A DNA stretch of 64,000 nucleotides from Thozetella sp. PMI_491 (taxonomy: Eukaryota; Ascomycota; Sordariomycetes; Chaetosphaeriales; Chaetosphaeriaceae), in assembly GCA_021432635.1 (NCBI GenBank), contig MU270137.1:1-64000 (forward strand). Direction: 5' to 3'. Below the pieces are notes generated by a model, which saw nothing but the letters and a program-made list of their open reading frames with translations, was not told the origin of the DNA and ran no database searches. This document shows positions 2,477 to 51,732 of this stretch, piece after piece; within the stretch, counting starts at the first letter, position 1; every line of letters starts with the position of its first letter. The translations under genes were made by a program, and so were the position numbers.

Positions 2477-5045
2477 CTACAGTGGCGGTGCGTTCGGGTC
2501 CATCATGCACTGATCGACCCTCATCAGCTGCTTACCCGTGGCCTTGGCAATCTGGATGAACTGTCGTAGATATCCCACGGTGCTCGGGTACAGGTAGTGC
2601 ATGACCACCAGACTGCCTCCGTTGTTCACATCTCGATTGAACGCGTCCAGCTGCTTCTGGGGCGTCGAGCTCTGCGCCCATAGCCAGTCCTCCACGTCGA
2701 CGTTCCACATGACGAGATACGGGTTGTCGGTGCCCAGCGTCTGCGCGAGGCGCTGGCGCATGCGCGCTCCTTCGTTTCCAAACGGCGGCCGGAAGTAGGG
2801 AGTGAAGAAGCCCTCGCCGAAGGTCTGCTTCATTGCCGTGATGTCGTTGTTGTACTCCCAGTCGATGCTGGCGTAGTCTGGCAGGCCCTCCATCTTGGGG
2901 TGGGTGAAGCTGTGCAGTGCGATCTGGTGGCCCTGCGCCTTCATGTTCTTGTACACGCTGCTGAGGTTCGTGGTCGGGTCCTCAAGAGGAGCCCCAACTG
3001 TGAAGAAGGTGACGTTGATCCCCTCGGCCTTGACGATGTCCACCACCTGCTGCGCGAGGGTCGGGTCGCCGTCGTCGATGGCGAACGCGAACGAGTTGGG
3101 GCGCTTGCAGCCGAAGACCAGGTTCCCTGAGGGGAGCTTGTTGGGGATGGTCACGCTACCAGGGATGCTAGGCACCAGCTCAATCTTGGTCAGCACAGTG
3201 GGGTTGGATGTGTAGAAGCCCTTGAAGGCCAACCCAACGGCCCGCGCGAGGTCGATGTTGAAGTGCGACATGGGTATGTAAATGTCGGTCCCAGCGGCGT
3301 TGGTATACCGGGCGGCCTCAAGCGAGTCCCACGTCTCTGGGAAGGGGCTGACGGTGTCCGAGCAAGACGGGTTGTGCTGCTGTAGGGCGATAGTGAACTT
3401 GTTGCTTCCAGTGAAGGCAACGTGGAGATAAGAGCCAGCGTACTTGCTCACCAGATTGCTGCAGCCGCCGCCGACGAACTGGGTGTAGAAGGAGAGATCC
3501 GAGTCTTTGGAGACGATCGTCAGCTTCTTGTTGCCCCAGGTGAGGGTCATCCCGTCGTCGGCGCCGTGCCAGAATCCGAGAGCATTAGAGTCCTTGCCGG
3601 CGAACTGGTCAACCAGCAGGGTCGGGGAAGGACCGGCCGGGGCCGGTACCGTATAGCTGGGGCCAGCCGGGACCGAGGTGGGTGGTACTGTGTACTCGGC
3701 CCCACTGTTACCGCAGTACGCCTCCATCGGACCGAAGGTCACGGCCTTGTTGAAGCTGCCAAAGTAGACCGTGTTGAGCTTCGTCAGGTCGATGCCGTTG
3801 AACTGGGAGAACGGGATCGTATACAGCTGGGATGTACCGTCAAACTTCCAGCCGAGCGTGGTAGAGGAGACGGACACCAAGTTCGAGTCAGCCTTGCCAC
3901 AAGCCGTCGTCGACTGCAGCTGGACAATGAAGGTGGTCCCGGCCGCCGCCTTGATGCGGAGGGAGACGCCGCCGTACAGGTTTTTGGCGTTGATGCAGCC
4001 GAGCTGAGAATAGAAGTACGAGTTGGTGTTCAGCGGCGTAAGTGTGACAGTGTTCTGGCTCACTACCACCGACTTCATGCTCCCGTCATCGCTGGAGGGC
4101 TGGAGAAGGGCGTTGTAGCCAAGGAATGTGAGTCGGGACTGAGAGACCCAGTCATCGATCAGAAGACTAGAGCAGCCGGTGCTGGCAGCGGGGCTCGAGC
4201 TCGTAGACGAACTCGTCGGCCCCTTCACATTGCCAGAGGTCGCTATTGCTGGCGAGCTGGTAGCGGCCGGGTTGGAGGTGGAGGTAGTGGAGGAAGACTG
4301 GACCGCAGCGACTGTGGATGAGCTGGATGGGGTAGACGAGCTGGACGAGCTAGACGAGCTGGTAGTGGCTGGGGAAGTGGCAGTAGCAGCTGTCGGGGCT
4401 TTCGAAGATGTCGCTACAGAAGTGGCGGATGAGGAAGCCTGCGCTGCCGAAGAGGCCGGTTGCGAAGTAGAGCCGCAAACAAGCTGGACGTTGCTCAGCT
4501 TCCAAGCGACACCCGTCTTGGAGAAGCCCGACCACGTGAAAGCCGTGAGTGCATCTAGGTTAGCGCCTGTAAACGACGACAAAGGCACTACAATCGTCTG
4601 CGGGGTGCCAGAGAGACCGCTGAGGGTGTAGTAGTAGTCCGTATACTTTGTTGTGCTACAGCTCTTGCACGCCTGGATGCCGAAGGTGATGGAGCTGCCG
4701 GCTGGTCCTTGGAGCGAGAAAGATACAGCGTTGTAGCCGCTTGTCTTGGCAGTCTGACATGGTAAGTTCTCGTAGAGGTACGAGTTGGCCTTCGGCGTGA
4801 AAGTGAGCGTCCCGCTGGCGGCAGAGATGGAGCTCATCGTATTATCATCTACCCGATATTGTCAGTTTTCTCTCTCAGCCTGTGCGTGCGAATACCAGGG
4901 GCTCACCGCTCGTGTAAACGCCGAGCGAGTTGGCGTGGGTCGACCATGACGAAAAGTTGTCGACGAGCAGATTGGACGCGCAGGTAGCGGCGCGTACAGG
5001 AATGGCGAGGCCTAACAAGGCCGCGAGCGCATCTAGCACGAGCAT
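2477..5045 (-). CDS. Secreted polysaccharide (chitin-type) deacetylase with three N-terminal repeat modules
   Basis: Two exons on the minus strand, 4907-5045 and 2477-4848, give 836 aa. The intron is 4849-4906. A signal peptide (MLVLDALAALLGLAIPVRA) supports the start. Residues 21-171, 271-425 and 456-606 are three copies of one module. Each opens with a [LI]L[VI]D[DNQ] stretch, then a DD-G/N-x-M turn and a Y-F/Y-Y strand, and ends near the next linker. They resemble galactose-binding-like beta-sandwich modules. A Ser/Thr-rich linker of about 100 residues separates copies 1 and 2. Residues 635-835 form the NodB carbohydrate esterase 4 domain: FAIDDGD (metal Asp 638/639), HSFTHP (His 692/696), RPPFG, DVEDW and LVVMHY. 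The family deacetylates N-acetylglucosamine polymers using a bound divalent metal, here probably in the cell wall or medium. The first motif has AI in place of the usual TF, but the catalytic and metal residues remain. Substrate is inferred. Confidence 0.88.
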
Positions 5046-18994: not shown

Positions 18995-21900
18995 TTACGA
19001 TCTTCCCATGACTCGGCTCGACGGATCGTCGCTGCTGTCGAGGCCTGTTTCCGTCAGACCTTGCTCAGTGGAGAGCACCGAGAGCGACCTCTCCCTCTTA
19101 TCACCGCCATTCGCCTTGGCCCCGTTGGTCATGCCTTCGATTCCGAGCCCGACCTCGCCTACGCGGCGGAGCACCAGCAGCAGGGCGCCCCGCAGCTCGC
19201 CGGAAAGCTCCCTCCCTAGAAGTTCAACGACCAAGGGGTAGAACTTCTTGATATTGGCGGCGAAGGCCTCCTGAGGGAAGCTGGCATAGCCCTCGAGCAC
19301 GTCCACGACGACCGGCCGCCACGCGACAATGTTGCGGTGCTGGCTCTCCTCTTCCAACGAGACATATCCCAAGATGATGTCCTGGCACAGTGGTACGAGC
19401 GCATTCTCAACGTCAGGCTTGCTTCCTTGGCGTTCCGGAGCAGTGTCACCGAACATGCGGAAGAGGATAGCGACGTAGGTGGCGGCGCTGCCCGATTCCT
19501 GTTTAAGGAGGTTCGGCGGCTGCCTCATAAAGCCTTCACGCCACAGACGCATGCGTAGGTCTTTGTCGGCGTTGAACCGGCGCGCAAACAGGAAGGACTT
19601 CTTCAGAAGCGCCATGAGGCGGAGAAGCTCGGATGACGGGATCTGCGCGTACACAGCATCATTGCTGAAAAGTTCATTAACCGTCTCGATCATCAGCAGC
19701 TGGAGCACGCAGCGGCTGATGATGCGATTGAAGAAGCGCCTGCGGGCAGCTGTCACTACAACAGGCTGCTGCTGGAGCGGGTTGCTGGGCTTGAATTCCT
19801 CTAGCTGGGGTGAAGGCAGTGGCTGAGGTGGCGGAGTTGCTGCCGTGGGCGGCGTAGACGCGCCTGTGTTCTCTTCGTCGGCGGATTGGGCGCTCTCCGA
19901 GTCAGTACCGTTCTTCTCGGCGCCATTGATCTTGAGGGACTTCTCGTCGACAGTCATGACTTCCGCCGTCGGACTGAGCGGCCCGGTGAAACCCAAGCCA
20001 TTGGGCGGGGGTGAGAGCGATGCAGTCGAGTTAATTGTGGTAGCAGAGAACAGTTGATAGGCTGTAGTCCGCTCGAAGAGCTCACAGAACGCACCGACGA
20101 TCTTGGACCAGTGCTCCGTGGTGAACTTGGTCACGTTCTGAAGGATAAGCTGCTGCAGGCAATTGCTGCCTATCCTTGCGATGGTGTCGTTCTCTTGACA
20201 GATGCAGAGCGCAAGGAGCTCCAAAAACCTGTCGAGCATGTACTCGAGGGCCTCGAAGTAATGTGTGAAAAGAGTGATCATGTTCCGGAGAGCCTGAATC
20301 ATGGTCGTCGAGAGCCACACCGAAAGCTCCTCGTGGTTCAGGACGTTTGTCATCTCGGGCTTTGACCGCAGCACTAAGAAGATGGGATACAGCTGCTGTC
20401 TCCAGAGGATGTCCCAGAAGTCGGGCGGGAAGTCACCACCATAACGCAGAAGAGCCTCGAAGAAATAGTTGAGAGCGTTCGACCGCACCTCGAGGTCCTC
20501 TCCGGTCATGAGCACGTCGTGGAAGGCGAAGAGCACGGGGAACCAGAACCCTTCTTCGACCGAGGTCTTGGTCTGCTGGCCTGGCGACCTGAGGCTGATG
20601 TCGGCCGCATTGGGATTTAAGTTGAACCTCTGAGAGAGCGGACATTCCGGGGTCTTGAGCATCTTGGGGATGATGGACTTGAGCGTCTCCATGGCCTGCA
20701 GGCTCTTCTTTTGGAACTTCATGTTCTTGGAGAACTCGGTGAGGCACACGATGAGATCCGTGAATGCGCCCTGCGAGATTACGACGCCGAACCTTGTCTT
20801 GTACACGTGCGAGACGTTCTCGTAGGCTAGGCCAACAATGCTCTCGTAGGGCTCCCTCGCGGCGACGGTGAAGACGCCGAACATCGTCCTCCAGCCTGAT
20901 CGAATGTTCTCTCCTCTAGCTTGGATCATCTGAATGAGGCAGCGGAGAATCATGTCCTTCACGGTGACGTTGTTGGAGTTGGACATGACATGCTCGAAAG
21001 GCTTAAGAAAGTCCTTCTGGAACTTGAAACCGGGAAGCTCCTCCAGCTCCATGAAGCGCATCGACAGCTGGCGGAGCGAGTCCAGCGCGAAGAAAACGAT
21101 TGCCGTATTCACGTGGCAGCCGACGCGGTTGAAATGCTCCCCGAGAACGTCCCATATGTTCGTCCACTCGAAACGAACACGCGTCATGTTGTAGTAGCTG
21201 ATCTCAACGATCTTCTGCAGGCTGTAGGTGCGCGGTGAGTCGTTGGACCCGGACACCTTAATCTCGTCCCAGCTGACGTCGGTCAGGGCCCGGGCGAAGT
21301 GGACGATGGCTTCACCGTTCAAGTTGGCCGTGTTGGTGAAGATCCTATCCACACTCTTGACCACCTCGTCGGACCTGCTTTCAAGCGCGATTTCCATCGA
21401 GACCCCCTGCGGTCCAGTGCTAGAACGCTGGCGTGGTTTCCGTGCTGAAGCGGCCGACCTCCGGGAATCGCCAGTGTCCGTTCGAGAGGGCGGCACGAAG
21501 CGCGCCTTGGAGACGTCCGGAACGGCACTCTCGTCGACACCACCAGATATAAGCTGCAGGCGGTCCAGCTGGCTGATGCACATGAGCACATCCTTCCACG
21601 ACTCCTTGAGGGTGTTTCCCTCGGTCTGGCCCAGCTCAAGAATGACCTTCAGCGCCTCGACGTTCTTCGCCTGCATTTCCTGGGGGTTGTTCAGGTTGGC
21701 CGTATTCTTGAGCGCCGAGATGAAGGCTTCTCGTGGGGTGCCGAGGTCGAAGACGCAGGCAATCTTGGTAGCCAGCTTCATGCCCTCGAGGCAGAGCTTA
21801 TTGGCCTCCAGGTTGTGGGTCTTCTGCATCTGGCTGGAGAGAGCGGAGAAGAATGACATCCAAGTCACGTCGAACATAGGCCCAACGTGCTTGAACGAGG

Positions 21901-24610
21901 TTGCAGGGATGAACTTGGTTCCCGCCTTCGCCGCATTCCGGCGCTGGGTCCGAAAGAGGTTCTTGAAGAGCTGCTCCGATCGAAGCGAAATCTCCTCAGA
22001 TTGCTGAACATAGGCTTCCCTTTGGAGATCTCGGCCGACGTTGGAGAACGCCTGGCCAAGACCAGCGGCGAGGCCGGTGGCCTGGTGCGGAACATTCCCG
22101 GCAACCGCGGCAGCCTCCCGCTCGCTCTTCAGCACAATTTCGTTCCCGGCGATATCGTCGTAGATGCCGAGGAGATACTCCTCCGGCAGGTCGGCGTTGT
22201 CATTGATGCCACGGTTGTTCTTGATGAAATCCTCCTTGCTCATTCGCTTCGCGATCTTGGTGCTGTGCAGATCCGTGTTCAGGAGGATGACAGAGTAGGC
22301 AAGCACATACGGAGTGTCAGCATTGGCGAAGGCGTTCGGATTACCCATCATGTAGCGATTGGCAAACTTGAGCATGAATCGATCGATCTTCTGGGCCTCG
22401 CCAGGCAGCCGGAAGGACTGAAGAAACTGTCGCAAGGCCTCGACAAAGCGCTTCTTGGTGAAGTCCATCGTGTCAACGAAGGCGTGCATAATATCGATGT
22501 TCTTCTGATCACCGTCTCCCAGGTACTCGCCGATCTGGGCCTTATCGAGCCTCTCTTCACTCAGCAAGAATTTGGCAATGTCCTCGGGCTTGTCGCTGGC
22601 GATGAAACCATCTTTGATTAGCAACTTGACACCGTTCTTCGGCTTGAAGTTGAACACTTTGATCGCATTTGTCATCGCCGTTTTCCTCGCCTTCTCCTTC
22701 TCGAGCTGGTCCGGGTCGTCGTCCACGATGGGTGTCGAGGGCAAGACCGGAGTATCCATCCGCGAGACGCTATCACTAGCGGTTGGATCGATTGACTGCC
22801 TAACATCGTCGCTAGACCCCCTCCTCTCTGCGTCCTGCGTGCCATTACTTTCTACGCCGCTGGGCTGGGACCAGTTCACTAGGGACCTCAAGGCCTCTAC
22901 TAGTGACTCGAGGGCAACACGTTTCATGCTGTATTCCTTGGGTATGTCGGTTTCAAGCTCGTTGTTTGGCACGATGTGGGCAACAGACAGCGGGGGAGGC
23001 AGCACCCCTTTGCCTTGCCACTCGCCATAGGACTTGGCCTGCTTCTCCTCATAGAGCAGCTCCTGCGCAGCCGTGATGGGCACTGATGCGGTCGCGAACT
23101 TGGAGAGGTCCTCGACAATGATCTGGAAGATGTTGTCGACGTTCCTATCGCAGTCGTAGTTCAGATAAGTCTCCACCAAGGCGCGTGGGTCCTCGCTGAA
23201 CCTCTTGAGAACGCCAACAAAGTACAGCTTCTGCGACAGTGGCGCATTCTTTCTGGCTAGAAGTGCTAGGTAGATCTCGTTCAAGAAGACCTCAATCTCT
23301 TTCTAAGGAATGCATTAGACCCGCAGGATGCGGTACAGGACGGGCAAACTCACCTTGAACGGTGCCCGCATATACTTGAGCATCAACCAAAAGATCTCAC
23401 AAGAAACGTCGAATACGCGATCCACCGAGCTGGCACCATTTCGTGTAATGCTCAGGCAGAGGTAGAATTTGATGGCTTGGAGGAAGCTCGTGGGCTCGTT
23501 GTTTTTCGTGTTGGTGATAGTACAATAGGGCGAGGTAAAGATGTTGATGTTGTTATTCAGGACGGTGTGGATTAAGTGGAGGGAGATGAGTTTCGACCGC
23601 ATGGCCTGTCCGCGGAGGTCATAGAGCTGATCCTGCGTGAGCACCTTGGTCGAGAGGTTACAGAAAGACCGAAAGACCAGGTACGCGTCCCGGATGTAGA
23701 CTTCGTCCTCTGCGTCGAGTGACTCTGGCGTGTCTTCTTGAGAGGGCTCTCCACCGCTCTGATCTGACACAGATCTTGTCACCTTCTTCATCGGCTTGAT
23801 CTGCGACACCATGGTCGGCCCGTCGCCCATGTTCGAGTCGTCGAAGCTCTTGCGGTTTTCGAGGTCCTTCAGTGTGAGCTTCGGACCTACGCCGTTCTGG
23901 CCTTCGGAGGGGTTCACATCGGAAGCGCCGTCGTTAATATCGTCGAAGTCACCGGCCCCCAGGTGGCTGGCTCCATCGTCGATGTCGGGCCGGTCGACGG
24001 CCAGGCTGCTCGCGCTCGCCTTCAACTTCCCCAAACTGGACCGAGATTCCTTCATGTGCAGGCGTGTCTTAACCCTCTCGAAGACAGTGCCGACCATCTG
24101 CGTCAGCGTCCCTTGCGCCACCTGCTGGTTCGCAGTGCTGCGCGATAGAAGGAACACATTGTAGACTTGGCGCACTGCTTTCAAAAGGCCGGCACCGTGC
24201 ACGACAATCTTGTCATTCAGGACGGCAGCCAACAACGACTTGACTATTTGGAGTTGTATCTCCACCGGAGTGGTCTCGCCTTGGAAGCAGTCGCAGATGG
24301 TGTCGATAGCTCGCTCGATCAGAGGGGCCTGCTCGGCGCCATCCTCGTCCGAGGTCCCGGGCTCGACGGTGAAGTAGGAATAGGATATGAGCTTGCCGAT
24401 GCAGTCGAGGGCGGTCGTCGCGAGGGGTATCGTGCCCGATTTCGTAGCCAGTTGGAGAGGCGCAAAGACGACCTCGGGGTCTGGGAGCTGCTGGTCGTTC
24501 TTGTCGATAGCCCCAAGGGCCTTCTGGACCAGCTCGGTAAGCTGCTTATTCTTGCCGGCATTGGCGGCGATGATGTCCAGAGAGGACACCACGAATTTGA
24601 GGGAACTCAT
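18995..24610 (-). CDS. SEC7: Sec7-domain ARF guanine-nucleotide exchange factor (large BIG/Sec7 type)
   Basis: Two exons on the minus strand, 23354-24610 and 18995-23302, give 1854 aa, the usual size for this family. An N-terminal DCB region (residues 1-200) and a HUS-like region (PLSQKLYFVGVLKRFSEDP...FLNYDCD type) precede the Sec7 domain at about residues 620-810. The catalytic glutamate finger is in FRLPGEAQKIDRF (Glu 721). The second conserved motif is PYVLAYSVILLNTDLH...MSKEDFIKNNRGIN. Long HDS helical regions fill the rest. The C-terminus has a charged Ser-rich end. Yeast Sec7 and mammalian BIG1/2 load GTP onto Arf1 at the trans-Golgi to start vesicle budding. The GPTMVSQ...KKVTRSVSD and linker segments are acidic and likely disordered. 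The single intron joins KAPFK to KEIEVFLNEIY. The gene is convergent with the HSM3-like gene. Confidence 0.95.
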
Positions 24611-26182
24611 GGTAGTCCAGGTTCCGCGCGGATGGCCATTCGCAGCGGGAAGGACTCAGCGCATGGAAGGGGGGGTTCAGCAGCACGGCGCGTTGGGTGC
24701 GATGGCCAGAGACACGCTGGCAAACGCAAGGGGCGAAGGATTGCCCAAAGGGGCGTGGTGACCTAACCCGCAACGAAACAGCTGTGATCGAACTGGGTGG
24801 GCTGATGAATATGAGGTCGCCGGTGCAGACTGTACAATGGAATCGTCGTTTCTGGGGCAGCCTAGATGCGCTCTGGTGCTTGTTTGCCGGGGCTCCTTTT
24901 TGAGTGATGCTTTTAAGTTGACAGCATGGAACCTTCAACTCGAACCTCCCCAAGTGGAGCACCTTACGAATGGAAACCCACTCAGCCCGGAAAATCTGCT
25001 TGGTCCGTGCACGAACATGGGTTCCCTGCGGCTCAAACCGCAGGCCTGGCTGTTGTATGGGGAGCACTTTAAGCATGCTATCTATGTACCTACTGTACCT
25101 ATGAATTTACTCGTCCTCATATTTGCTTCTACTGTACCAAAGAGTGGAGAAGACTTGAGCGATTTGGACGCTCGTCTACACATCAATAAAAGCGGCGTCA
25201 TCTGTCGCAGGCAGAAGCGATGGAGGTCGTCGCCAAAATAAAAGCAGCAACGCGCCTGCCTGCTGCGCCTATTGGGACAGCGTTCCAGTGCTGTGTCGAA
25301 TTTGCAGCGGGAGCTCGCACTTTGTCTGACAGAGATCGCGCGCCCTCGACTTGGCTGGTTAAGGGGGCGGCGCGCCTTATGTGAGCAATGAGGGAGAGCG
25401 TGGAAATGAGGACTTGATTGAGCCTGGACCCTTGCACAAAATGGACGACCTCTGTGCCGGTCGCAATTCGTCGCTGCAATCCTCGCCCAAGCGTCGTTTA
25501 TTTGATGACAGGAGCCCGGCGCGAGTACTACTTGTTCTGTCTTGGTTGGGGGACCTCTGAGCTGCGGAGTCCGGATCAGAGATAGGAGCGGCCATAAAAA
25601 GACGCAAGGGTCAGTTCGGCGCACTCGGGCAGAGAGGTCCGGAATGTCCGGAAGGCGTCCAAACCACAGCCCGAGGGCCACAACTCAGGGCCCGTGAGGG
25701 CAGCAGCAGGCAAACGTAGAATCGAAGGAAACAGCGAGCCTAAGTCGTGAACAAAGTCAAACGTCTAGGCTGGCGCCGTGGGCGCGAGTCAACGCGATAG
25801 CTCATGATCGTTTTAAAACGGGACAGTCGCCGTGCTGCTCCGACGAGGTGGGTTCCTAGACCGGTGGCTCCACCCGCTCCCAATGGGTCCCAGCTAGGGT
25901 GGCCCAAGCTTCCTGTCCCCAACAACTGTGGTTGGCAGGCTTTTTGGTGGTGGCCGTGGGATGAAGTCCGGCTCAAAAAAAAATCCATCATCCTCTTCCC
26001 GGCATCGCACCGCGACACCTTTTCTCTTCTCACCCAATTCACTCATCCCCAACCCGGTCTCTGGTCGCTCTGAACGGCCAATTCATCTCTCTTGAGACGC
26101 GAATTGGGCACCTTCGTTCTATTTCGCCCGGTCCTCGAAGTTCGTCAATTGTCTCGAGCTGTTTTTCCCCTCGTCGCTCAAG
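24611..26182. promoter_or_regulatory. Divergent promoter region of SEC7 and LAT1
   Basis: 1.57 kb between two divergent housekeeping genes. Open frames here (for example 25082-25681, minus) have no family signal. The last 200 bases before 26183 are pyrimidine-rich, as is usual upstream of highly expressed fungal genes. No further gene seen. Confidence 0.5.
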
Positions 26183-46545: not shown

Positions 46546-47502
46546 CTAATCACCTGCCTTTGGCACCCCGAACTCCGATAGTAAAAATCGTGGACCCTTT
46601 GCCACCCAAGCGTCTACTTCTGCCTGCTTAGAAACCGGCATGACCCCTAACATCCCAATGGCGTTCGCGCCCGCGTCCCCCACTACGCCTCTCCGCCGGG
46701 GAAGAACTAACATCCATCGCTTGGTGAAGACTAGGTTGTGGGGACAGCAAGCGTCAGGTGGCGAATCCTTATACTTACCCGGATAGTATTCGGCTGCCAT
46801 GGTGCTTTTGTCAAGAAGATCATCGTAGATTGCTAATATATCCTCCGTTGCAGCTTTGTTCAGATCGAAATCGAAACGGCTATAGAACCACACAAAGGGC
46901 ACATCGGGCTCCTCTCCGCCAGGGCGGTCGAGGAATGCTGCAAAGTTGTCCTCCGGGTAGGGCATAATCTGAATGTGCTTGTGTAGGCGGCTGCAGCCGC
47001 CAGGGATGCCGCAGTTGAAGAAGACAACGTAGTCTTTGTCTTCGCCCAAGGCCAGGAGCGCGGTCCGGGTGGCGTCGAGGTCGTTCCAGCTCAAGCGCTC
47101 GTGCTGGCGGCGGAAGCCATCCTTGGTCATGACGAGCATGTGCGGCCGCACAAAGCAGAACTTGTTCATAGCCAAGAAATGCGCTTCGCCGACGTCGCCA
47201 AGCTCGAAGCCCGTGGTGTCAATGTCGCTCCCGGGCTGAAGGTGCTTCTGCGGCTGGCTCTCGGGCGTCTGTCCATTGCTCTGCTGCGCCGTCGGCTTTT
47301 TGGCGAAGGCAGGGGTGAGAATAATTTTGACCTGCGAAGCGAATTAGGAGACTGCGAAGGTGTTGTGAAGCTTTGTGCACGAGCTTGCGCTTGCCTTGAG
47401 GTCGCCATCGCTGACCGTAGTCGTTTGTTGCTCCTCGCTGTACAAAACAATCCCAGCATCCACCAGCTGGTCAAATCTGTCGAGAAGGCTAGCCTCATCC
47501 AT
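46546..47502 (-). CDS. APA2: Ap4A phosphorylase / ATP adenylyltransferase (APA2-like)
   Basis: Two exons on the minus strand, 47395-47502 and 46546-47331, give 297 aa. The intron (47332-47394) begins with GC, not GT (AAG then GCAAGC), and ends CAG. It is a GC-AG intron. Joined, the protein reads LK-VKIILTPAFAKKP as in relatives. HIT-like active-site HxHxQ is in GGCSRLHKHIQIMP (His 153, His 155, Gln 157). Further landmarks are FCFVRPHMLVMTK, WNDLDATRTAL, YVVFFNCG and PHNLVFTKRWMLVLPRR. The enzyme splits Ap4A with phosphate into ATP and ADP and makes the reverse adenylyl transfer. Length is slightly below the usual 320. The start MDEASLLDRFDQLV matches the family start. Cytosolic or nuclear. 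Confidence 0.92.
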
Positions 47503-49230
47503 TTTCGGCAATATGGGTCGGAAGCCTTGTATCGCTTCGTCCTCCCATCGGCTGCTGTGTTGCAATGGGGACAACGCCACCCGGAGCAAATGGCGGTCAA
47601 CGGTAGGTCTCCTCGCGGTGCGGAGCCTCTCGGCCTCCGACAAGTGGGGCCGTCCCGGACCTTCAACAGCCGCTCGCTGTGCTCTCGCTCGCCCACGCAA
47701 AGCCAACTGCGGAATGCTCGTCCTATGGATGCCATCGAGAGACCAATAGACCGCCTCCTCACACAAATAGCTGGAGTTTTCGTCTCTTGGGGCTAATGAA
47801 TTGCCCTTCAGCAAGGTGTCAATACCGATCCCCCAATGGTCAACGCCGCCCTCCGCACTCTCTTCATTGGAGGTGCTAATCGTCCAAATTTCTAGGCTCA
47901 AGGGAGTGGTATAATCGGGCGCGCGAGATCCGGGCTTAGTGACTAGGTAGCCATCCTTCTAAACACCTCCACGTTCAGCCAGATGTTGGAGCGAGGAGCT
48001 TTAAATCGTCTCCGCGATGAGCATGCTCAGCCGCAATTTCAGTTCATCTATAATGTTCAGGGGGTATAGTGCCAATGGTAACTTATAACATCAACATGGT
48101 ACCGCCGAGGGCATTGATATACCGCACTGTAAGCGTAAGAGAATAGATTCTCATTCTGTATCAAATGGACTAGCAAAATAGAGCGGCATGTCGCCGCCCA
48201 TTCTAATAGAATAGCCGCTTGACGCCGCCCCCATATGTCAACAAGTTCGTTTGTACCGCCAGCCACTTCTTCCTTCGTGACATGTTATCAATTTAACACT
48301 CTTTAACACGCAATCAGGGTGGTCTGCCAGCTACCTACGTTGTGTGATTACGTTGCAAATGTTGTGATCTAGGAACTTTATATTCGACTAAGGCCCTGCG
48401 GAGATTGTGCTTTGATGAATTAATTGATTAATCCGATAGAAATTCTACCGAGCGTATTCTATCATGCGAACTGTATTTTGGTACCGCGCTGTTCACAGAG
48501 CAGACTATTTTAATAAAAGCGTTGCATTGCCCAGAGAGCTACGGCTCGCTAGGCGCGAGTATTCATCCGAGATGACAAGCCGTGGTAAGTCTAACAACCT
48601 CCGTTTGCAGTATTTACCGGTAGGAAAAGTCAGCAATTTATTTTATCTCCGCTTCGCGACCGACAGAAGCGCCAGCTAATCTGTAATAACCACTATCGTA
48701 ACAACACAATCAACTTTACGCGGGTAGACGAACCCTGAGAATAAGTGAAAGATCATCGCTGGGCGGAACTAGAGCACATGAGTGGTACTTCTGACAGACC
48801 TTATGCTATATTTTAAGCCCATGGATCGATTTTCAAGTGCAGAATCTGGACTCTAATTGCCCCGGGCTTACTCGCGGGCACCTCGTTGCTGTAGAGTTCG
48901 TGATTACGCGCAGCATCGGGGCTTGACCAAGCCAATGTTCGCATATTTCGCGTTGAAACCAAGAGCCGGTAGATCTCGTTCCTGTAAAGAGATCGTATCT
49001 CAGTATAAAAGGCAGACAGCAATCCTCCTTCCGTCATTCGTTTCCCAAACTCGTTCTCTTCAAGCCAACCAAGAGTCTTTTGAGACAGCTAGAAGCTATT
49101 CCATATCAACCCGGTCAATACTCATCTCGTAAGTTGACTCCTTGGCCATTGAGAATCGACCACTAGAGGCACAAAATGAACATGGCTAACAATCCTTTCA
49201 CAGACACGCACACTCTAAACATCATTAAAA
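47503..49230. other. Long AT-rich intergenic region
   Basis: 1.7 kb. From 48050 the composition turns AT-rich with many stops in all frames. Frames at 47101-47796 and 47344-47901 are mostly antisense or upstream shadows of the APA2 gene. A region that looks decayed, but I name no element in it. The last 250 bases hold the promoter of the small gene at 49231. Confidence 0.55.
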
Positions 49231-49580
49231 ATGCGCTTCATTGCTATCTCCCTCCTTACTATGCTTCCTGGAGCAATTCTTGCCGCCCCAGCCGAAGATT
49301 CCACCCAGGTATCTTGCCAAATTGGAGGGGATGCAGCCTGCAAACTTTCGGTTCGTTCACCCTATGAGAACCACCAGCTCCCTTCCTATTTGGAGTATTC
49401 CATTGAAACACATGACAGACGCTGACATAGTATTCTCGGGATATTTAGTGCTTCAATAGAAACGCTCTGTGCGAATGGAGCACCCAATATAACCCCGCGA
49501 GATAGTAAGTTTAGGACCACTGCGGCGTAGTTGAGCATTGAGGCTTACGTCACGATAGCATTTGCGTCTGCCATCCCTGA
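49231..49580 (+). CDS. Cysteine-rich secreted peptide, defensin-like (CS-alpha-beta pattern), three exons
   Basis: Exons 49231-49350, 49449-49504 and 49559-49580 join in frame to 65 aa. Introns are 98 and 54 bases; the first starts GTTCGT (weak), the second GTAAGT (strong). Residues 1-19 (MRFIAISLLTMLPGAILAA) are a signal peptide, followed by a short acidic spacer. The mature part has six Cys at 29, 37, 41, 48, 61 and 63: C-x7-C-x3-C-x6-C-x12-C-x-C. The C-x3-C and C-x-C pairs are the core of the cysteine-stabilised alpha/beta fold of defensins such as plectasin, where disulfides link C1-C4, C2-C5 and C3-C6. Loop lengths differ from plectasin: shorter before C4 and longer after it, and the Gly-x-Cys element before C4 is absent. 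An antimicrobial or competition role is possible but not shown. Without the splicing, the frame just runs on to a stop at residue 64. Confidence 0.6.
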
Positions 49581-50339
49581 GTGATCGAGAATCGAGCGAC
49601 ATATGGCAGTCTGGTTCGTTAGCAGTAAATCTTTGAGAATGCAGCGGTTCTTACAGATCGCCTTGTCCTTGAAACACTCTTTCAAGGCACTGGAGTAAAA
49701 AAAGAAGGAACCTATACGGTCTAGAAAATAATCTGTGCGGTAGTTTTCTAGAGGAAAAGGCTAAAAGAAAACAAAAGCCAAAAAGGGGAGAAGGGGGGAG
49801 GGGGGGGGGGGAAGGGGGGAAAAGCTCTTAACCCTCGGATCCAACCATGCTACGCTATTGTGAATTTGGGAGGTTGAATATTGCAAGAAAAGTTGCATCT
49901 ACTCCCCCTTCCCCCAACTAGGCAAACTTTGTATTTACTTTTCAACATCATCTCCATTAAGCCGCCTTCTCAGTCATCTCATGCCTCAACCCTTGCTCAG
50001 ACTAGTCCCGCCGATTAGCTCAATTCATATCATGATGCTCATTTAAAGTACAAGACTTCTCAGACGCGTACTATGTGCATCTAGTCGTTGTCGAAACCAT
50101 GTGTCGATTCCGTGAGTGTCTACTGTGAGAGAGCATACTAATCATGTTTCATAAATGACGAAATGCCTGTGGAATCTCTTCCTTCGCTGAAGGAAGGTGG
50201 CAACATGAGTGCACCATCATGCTTGTTTGACCACATGATGAAGGCAAGAATGACACGAGTTCAAATTTCAGATTTTAGGGACCGCAACCATAATCCGCGT
50301 GGAAGCCAAATTCTTCATCATGTTACTCTCCACACTAAT
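49581..50339. other. AT-rich gap with a G-rich tract
   Basis: Includes a G-rich run at about 49784-49820 with a G-stretch of more than ten. The remainder is AT-rich. No gene seen. Confidence 0.55.
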
Positions 50340-51732
50340 CTATGATGAAATGTCCTCCATGACAACATCGCCTTCCTCGTCCTCCTTTATCTGGAGGTTC
50401 TCCATGCCGAGGTTCTGCACCTGAGCTCTATCGGCCGCCTCGGCCACATCCTCCACCTCTTCAGTCGTTTCCATCCCGACCGGCGGGGCGGGCTCCGCGG
50501 TGTCGGATTGTGTCCGCAGGTTCTCCTCCCAGTCTTTGTCAGCTTCATCGTTCTCGTAACAACACGGAGTCCAGCGGCGGTTCATCCCGATGAATTCCAT
50601 GTCCTTGTCTGTCCAGTCAACAAACTCCCAAGTGTAGCTATTTTTAATCATCAGGGCGTCGACTGCCTGGGCAAGCATTCCCGACTGGGAGACTTGGTAC
50701 TGCGTGTGCCGACTGTTGAGAGACGCGATAAAGTCGAGCCGAGCCTTGGTGACAGTGTTTACCAAATCAACGAAGACGTGGCGGTACATGCGGCGGCCGA
50801 GAGCGGTGCCACCCTGGTTCTCCATGAGGAAGCTCGCAATGTCATGGCACGCGTCGATACCCTTGAGTTCGTCGTCCAAGAAAAACGCGAGGCAGTCGAA
50901 GATCTAGTTGGTATAGAGTCATCAGGGGTGCCATGATCATGTTATTGTAGACAATATGGCTCTTACCTCGGCCAACATTGGTTCGGCACAGCGTCGGTTG
51001 AACTGGGTAAATTTGGGATGCGCCATGATGGCATTTCTGACGTCTTGATCGTGTCTCTGGTGGGCGAGAATCCGGGGAGCTCCTTCGTTCTCCTTCCAGA
51101 TGAATCCAGGCTTGGGGATGATGTGAACGAGGAGAACGGCCAGCGGGGTCTCCATTTTCTTCAAGCGAGTTAGCATGAAAAACTGATGATTACTAGGGAC
51201 TATGTTACCTACGATGATGATTGCGCCGAGGCCGAAGTTGTAGAGTGAGAGAAGGGAGATGGAAGGGATGATCTTACAAAAATCCGAAGTGGGAGAAGAG
51301 GTCAAGATTCGTTCTCTGGCGGCTAGGGATGGATGAAGATTGATGGAGGGGTACCTCAAGATCTCAAATTGAAGAGATAGCTTCAGGCTGGAGTCGTTTG
51401 ACGGACGGTGATAAATTAATACAGTTCTTAAAATCTGTAATCGATTTAGACTTCTCTGGTTGATGAATAGTAAGTGTGAGAAAGAGAACAGAGAGCATGA
51501 GGTAGAGGTAAATGAGGCACTGGTCTAGGAATCAACAAAGGCTCACGGAATAGCAACCGAAACCCGGGGTTCCCCAGGTTGAGGGAAGGAACAGTAAGCC
51601 AAAGGAGTCAACCTTGGGGACACGTACTTGGGGAGAGGCAGTTGGGGATATGGTAATTGGGGTAGCGAGGGGGGAATCAACATGGACTTCTGAGATTGGG
51701 GGGGAAGGGAGGACGGCTGTAGGCAAGTTCAT
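50340..51732 (-). CDS. Orphan four-exon protein, 355 aa, function unknown
   Basis: Four exons on the minus strand, 51628-51732, 51278-51434, 50967-51208 and 50340-50903, join in frame. Donors are GTACGT, GTAAGA and GTAAGA. The start peptide is Pro/Ser-rich (MNLPTAVLPSPPISEVHVDS). The middle carries VPSNHQFFMLTRLKKMETP and a hydrophobic LAVLLVHIIP stretch, and the rest is helical with HPKFTQFNRRCAEPMLAE and MYRHVFVDLVNTVTKARLDFI. The tail is acidic (EEVEDVAEAADRAQVQ and MENLQIKEDEEGDVVMED), typical of a nuclear protein. I recognise no domain. The first two exons are the least certain, because they rest on frame and splice consensus only. The minimal form would start at the ATG at 51155 or 51176. 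Confidence 0.55.

Follow-up and report, generated by a model that had tools for sequence, protein, structure and literature searches.

We analysed a 64,000-nt stretch of the ascomycete Thozetella sp. PMI_491 (GenBank assembly GCA_021432635.1, contig MU270137.1, positions 1 to 64,000 of the forward strand), here called the window, and describe a locus at 49231-49580 where three short predicted exons join into a frame for a 65-residue cysteine-rich peptide. The initial annotation had proposed a spliced defensin-like peptide at this place, and its exon coordinates and borders were reproduced. The features of the locus, including those proposed upstream of the start codon, are the following.

49004-49011, plus strand: possible TATA box TATAAAAG, 227 nt ahead of the ATG, present as a single copy in the window
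49129-49203, plus strand: putative 5'-leader intron of 75 nt (GTAAGT...GCTAAC...CACAG)
49231-49350, plus strand: coding exon 1, with the predicted signal peptide, a short spacer, Cys1 and Cys2; its last codon precedes Cys3 (phase 0)
49351-49448, plus strand: intron 1, 98 nt, phase 0, inside the CxxxC helix motif (GTTCGT...GCTGAC...ATTTAG)
49449-49504, plus strand: coding exon 2, which on translation of the joined exons supplies Cys3 and Cys4 together with the greater part of the loop that leads to CxC
49505-49558, plus strand: intron 2, 54 nt, phase 2, cutting the Tyr59 codon in the Cys4-Cys5 loop (GTAAGT...GCTTAC...CGATAG)
49559-49580, plus strand: coding exon 3, which on translation of the joined exons supplies Cys5-x-Cys6, His-Pro and the stop codon TGA

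The ATG at 49231 stands in the context AAAAATGC, and the TGA at 49578-49580 closes the joined frame, in keeping with the earlier statement that frame and stop fit the intron ends. Both coding introns run from GT to AG, with GTTCGT as the donor of intron 1 and GTAAGT as that of intron 2, and they interrupt the frame after coding nucleotides 120 (between Cys2 and Cys3) and 176 (between Cys4 and Cys5). Each carries a branch-like motif of the form RCTNAC, which is GCTGAC in intron 1, with its A 23 nt from the intron end, and GCTTAC in intron 2, with its A 11 nt from the intron end. Exon 2 could not start earlier in the same frame because an in-frame TAG directly precedes the intron 1 acceptor. With the ATG at 49231 fixed, we enumerated, between 49231 and 49700, every possible pair of GT-AG introns 40 to 200 nt long and tested each resulting model against the general spacing pattern that PMC10040121 gives for peptides of the cysteine-stabilised alpha/beta (CS-alpha/beta) class, CX2-18CX3CX2-10[GAPSIDERYW]XCX4-17CXC. 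One model fits this pattern, and its exons are those first noted. An automatic intron search over the window genes returned nine unconfirmed candidates with mixed donors, too few for scoring the first donor of the peptide gene; GTTCGT is the donor of one of the nine, within an overlapping lower-scored model.

The initial annotation also held that an open reading frame (ORF) scan misses the locus. This stands for the six-cysteine peptide, which needs splicing, but not for exon 1, which continues as an unspliced 64-residue ORF (49231-49425). That ORF has two cysteines only and was rejected as the product because splicing yields the full six-cysteine framework; it may be a retained-intron form. 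A transcript with intron 1 spliced and intron 2 retained was also rejected, as reading would end after 58 residues, ahead of the CxC.

In the joined translation the cysteines fall at residues 29, 37, 41, 48, 61 and 63, in the order C-x7-C-x3-C-x6-C-x12-C-x-C that had been reported. Residues 29-63 match the published pattern, and the six-cysteine framework with CxxxC and CxC, which had been read as the signature of the fold, is indeed present with spacing inside the published CS-alpha/beta limits. Following MRF, the precursor has a hydrophobic N-terminal segment, IAISLLTMLPGAILA, with a maximum 10-residue mean hydropathy of 2.54, in line with a putative signal peptide; the peptide is probably secreted. 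The spacer, APAEDSTQ, is short and acidic and lacks a dibasic cleavage site. Net charge is -1 for the likely mature forms and +1 for the core, and an arginine is present in the last loop. By our own reading, CEWSTQ-YNPA-RYICVC may form a beta hairpin with an Asn-Pro turn. The peptide strings IGGDAAC, GGDVACK, NRNALC and YICVCHP are absent from the running text of the literature searched, and GGDAAC occurs in one plant phylogeny paper (PMC6646720), which we take to be unrelated.

Upstream of the start codon, the pattern GTAAGT-N35-65-GCTAAC-N5-20-CAG, which was composed after the site had been seen, has a single match in the window (49129-49203) and none in 100 shuffles. This putative leader intron does not figure in the initial annotation. 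Its removal eliminates both upstream ATGs, at 49176 and 49182, and leaves 144 nt from the TATA-like site to the ATG, all of it ATG-free; a transcript that kept the intron would probably be translated less well into the peptide. The possible TATA box is no evidence by itself, since 48 of 100 shuffled windows contain at least one copy of TATAAAAG. A 63-residue upstream ORF (49176-49367) overlaps the signal-peptide region in a different frame. It was rejected as the main product because its start falls inside the putative leader intron.

We consider it quite probable that a genuine fungal gene lies here and encodes a secreted defensin-like peptide of the CS-alpha/beta class, a judgement that covers the gene and the peptide class together. 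Among the CS-alpha/beta defensin-like peptides of fungi, the peptide is most likely a new member, divergent in sequence. Transcription would begin at a point past the possible TATA box near 49004, the leader intron would be spliced out to give a leader without upstream ATGs, and the two coding introns would then be removed. The 65-residue precursor would enter the secretory path through a signal peptide of residues 1-18 or 1-19, approximately, with the spacer next and then a mature peptide of 40-47 residues. Oxidation of the mature peptide would form three disulfides, expected to be 1-4, 2-5 and 3-6, which would tie a short helix (CKLSC) to the beta hairpin. Outside the cell, the product would most likely serve against microbes or in competition, or else influence fungal growth or stress, as has been reported for some fungal defensin-like peptides.

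The intron phases and the well-formed leader intron strengthen the defensin-like reading, and the interpretation overall is partly supported. According to PMC4165938, the organisation of the micasin-type dermatophyte defensins recurs in every fDEF8 gene and in three fDEF2 genes: intron 1 has phase 0 and lies in the alpha-helical region, and intron 2 has phase 2 and lies in the c-loop. The gene described here has the same layout as the micasin-type, fDEF8 and fDEF2 genes (lecasin, pochlasin1, perisin) when compared by region and phase only, and it encodes, as they do, six cysteines with CxxxC and CxC, with a putative signal peptide in our case. The likeness is one of gene layout, and the locus is not assigned to fDEF2 or fDEF8; micasin itself gave no sequence match to the peptide in a PDB search with E up to 10. 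The fungal defensin-like peptides of Zymoseptoria (Zytrisins) are described in PMC5234102 as secreted, with six cysteines and little similarity to other proteins, and their genes as having two introns, of phase 0 and phase 2; our probably secreted peptide resembles them in this. In the Zymoseptoria genes the phase-0 intron is found where the signal peptide ends and the phase-2 intron in the Cys4 codon, whereas in our gene the phase-0 intron falls within CxxxC and the phase-2 intron in the loop that follows Cys4, a different layout. Plectasin, an ancient invertebrate-type fungal defensin, shares the CxxxC...CxC six-cysteine framework. Its loop lengths are 10/3/10/6/1 compared with 7/3/6/12/1 here, which bears out the earlier remark that the loops do not match, and a BLASTP alignment between the two covers two residues only (VC).

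For a chance expectation, the six-cysteine framework was sought from every ATG with at most two introns of 45-130 nt (donor GTNNGT, branch CTNAC, acceptor YAG). On both strands of the real window this gave one framework locus, the gene at 49231 with two nested ATGs, and the gene was the sole framework locus in the window under three splice rules. Under the GTNNGT and CTNAC rule, 300 block-shuffled windows held 2 loci; with the donor GT[AGT]NGT and no branch rule, the shuffles also held 2, and none of these loci was signal-like. A larger set of 13,585 dinucleotide-shuffled windows, scanned with GTNNGT and CTNAC, gave 27 framework loci, 1 of them with a signal-like start; in none did an intron of phase 0 separate Cys2 from Cys3 and one of phase 2 separate Cys4 from Cys5. 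In its synonymous codons the frame is slightly closer to the genes of the window than a null model of base composition predicts (P 0.0196, 5,000 simulations).

Several observations weigh against the defensin-like reading. The splice rules of the scan were set after the gene model was known, and under the laxest of them (any GT donor, CTNA branch) 60 shuffled windows gave 6 loci, 2 of them signal-like; this rate, about 0.03 signal-like loci per window, is a fair lower bound on the surprise. The coding score of the frame is near zero at 0.003, with -0.04 and -0.21 for the other two frames, and lies far below the 0.18-0.57 of seven large training ORFs. Donor 1, GTTCGT, is weak, as had been stated at the outset: its weakness is at +3/+4, with the G at +5 and the T at +6 retained, and it deviates from the usual fungal donor, GTRNGT. 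A competing in-frame donor, CAG/GTATCT at 49309, could be joined to the same acceptor (49309-49448); the product would then be a secreted peptide of four cysteines that lacks Cys1 and Cys2. The gamma-core, defined as Gly-X-Cys-X3-9-Cys in PMC10040121, was not found in the peptide, where Cys4 stands in Ala-Leu-Cys with 12 residues to Cys5. At E up to 10, Pfam gave no match to the full precursor, NCBIfam gave none, and the PDB chains gave none to either the full precursor or the core, yet the PDB includes micasin, eurocin and plectasin. Two non-fungal collections, genome_contigs (130 pattern stretches) and viral_contigs (19 pattern stretches), held no relative.

Given the gene and the peptide class, we rank an antimicrobial or competition role first, as a tentative choice. 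Ranked second, and to be taken seriously as a possibility, is that the same peptide is not antimicrobial and serves instead in the fungus's own development or stress, or as a secreted host effector. The net charge and the missing gamma-core glycine are in line with such a role, as is the comparison with plectasin, whose lipid II contacts are given in PMC10771296 as Phe2, Gly3, Cys4, His18 and Cys37. In our peptide F2 and G3 are replaced by V and S before Cys1, and H18 by S before Cys3; plectasin-type lipid II capture is therefore not supported. Since both these residues and the gamma-core glycine are absent, plectasin-type killing is unlikely, and a plectasin-type lipid II mechanism would likewise seem unlikely from the sequence. 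Published examples point both ways. In PMC5234102, Zytrisin-1 is without activity when tested, and over 70% of the Zymoseptoria peptides are net negative or neutral according to the text, from which a table note differs. AfusinC, anisin1 and VdAMP3, which are fungal CS-alpha/beta defensins or defensin-like peptides, were compared by description only. Anisin1 has been linked to development and fitness (cited in PMC4165938 and PMC6394349), which favours a non-antimicrobial role. Conversely, AfusinC is anionic yet antibacterial (PMC6181372), VdAMP3 is a CS-alpha/beta defensin that serves as an antifungal competition factor (PMC9438471), and the arginine in the last loop also argues for antimicrobial action. 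AfusinC has a long pro-region (residues 20-108; PMC6181372), of a kind that our peptide does not have.

It is improbable, in our assessment, that the locus is a real gene for a secreted cysteine-rich peptide whose main transcript or fold is not CS-alpha/beta, whether through use of the 49309 donor, with four cysteines, or through an altered fold as modelled for atypical Zymoseptoria peptides. The 49309 donor is in frame with the same acceptor, Cys4 is four residues nearer Cys3 than in plectasin while the last loop is six longer, and a change of fold in fungal defensin-like peptides has been reported from models (PMC5234102). However, GTATCT has no G at +5, the fold changes reported there accompany an altered CxxxC or CxC, both of which are intact in our peptide, and the Cys3-Cys5 distance of 19 residues is near the 17 of plectasin.

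We hold it no more probable that chance alone, in non-coding DNA, brought together a frame opened by an ATG, a pair of GT-AG introns and the spacing of the cysteines. The absence of any detected relative in the five collections searched, the near-zero coding score, the weak first donor and the signal-like loci that any-GT donors yield in shuffled windows all favour chance, as does the fact that the initial reading looked for many kinds of feature. Set against these are the single signal-like locus in 13,585 shuffles under the GTNNGT and CTNAC rule, none with the fungal defensin intron layout, and the separate consensus leader intron upstream. That the locus is junk mutated by repeat-induced point mutation (RIP) was rejected, both dinucleotide indices there being within the range of other stretches. 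Nine stretches were compared. TA/AT peaks at 48-49 kb (0.91; range 0.39-0.88 for the seven that lie outside 48-50 kb), and (CA+TG)/(AC+GT) is lowest there (1.12; range 1.15-1.51 for the same seven). The values for 49-50 kb, which holds the locus, are 0.80 and 1.38 and lie within the range of the seven, so that the gene itself shows no clear RIP sign and the sequence upstream gives a hint at most.

The peptide gene had been described as isolated in an AT-rich gap. GC content at 48001-50000 is 46.0%, the lowest value, as compared with 48-62% in the other 31 two-kb steps, so the AT-richness is relative only, and no frame of at least 180 residues lies between 47958 and 50340. The nearest frames are these.

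46546-47343, minus strand: Ap4A phosphorylase frame with a Pfam match, left of the locus
up to 47958, minus strand: frame adjoining the Ap4A phosphorylase frame, without a Pfam match, left of the locus
50340-50903, minus strand: frame right of the locus, without a Pfam match

Within the gap, about 200 nt past the stop codon, lies a G-rich purine tract of AAGGGGGG repeats (49783-49821). The genes of the window mark it as the DNA of a filamentous fungus. A Pfam scan (E up to 1e-4) of 20 of the 52 long stop-to-stop frames in the window matched 11 of the 20: Sec7/BIG2 (two frames), RNA polymerase III Rpc31, a fungal-specific transcription factor domain, 2-oxoacid dehydrogenase acyltransferase, HSM3, polysaccharide deacetylase, SET, Ap4A phosphorylase, P450 and ankyrin. 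The polysaccharide deacetylase match is confined to C-terminal residues 586-707 of a 794-residue frame (2477-4861, minus strand). At 18995-24655 (minus strand), a gene for a Sec7/BIG-type ARF exchange factor has its HUS domain divided between two adjoining frames, and the break at about 23302-23318 is likely an intron.

We regard as doubtful, though worth stating, the further idea that the Thozetella gene founds an undescribed fungal defensin subfamily. Such a subfamily would have the micasin-type gene layout, lack the gamma-core glycine and show a middle loop that is short (6) together with a last hairpin that is long (12). It would act by a mode other than lipid II binding, and would have been overlooked because its coding part is divided among three short exons. 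Defensins are small peptides used against microbes by many organisms, and those of fungi are both antibiotic leads and tools of microbial competition. A sequence-divergent peptide with no match in Pfam, NCBIfam or the PDB came to light here only when splicing was taken into account, which suggests that such genes can escape ORF scans and profile searches. Intron phases offer a practical second criterion, beside the cysteines, for locating fungal defensin genes.
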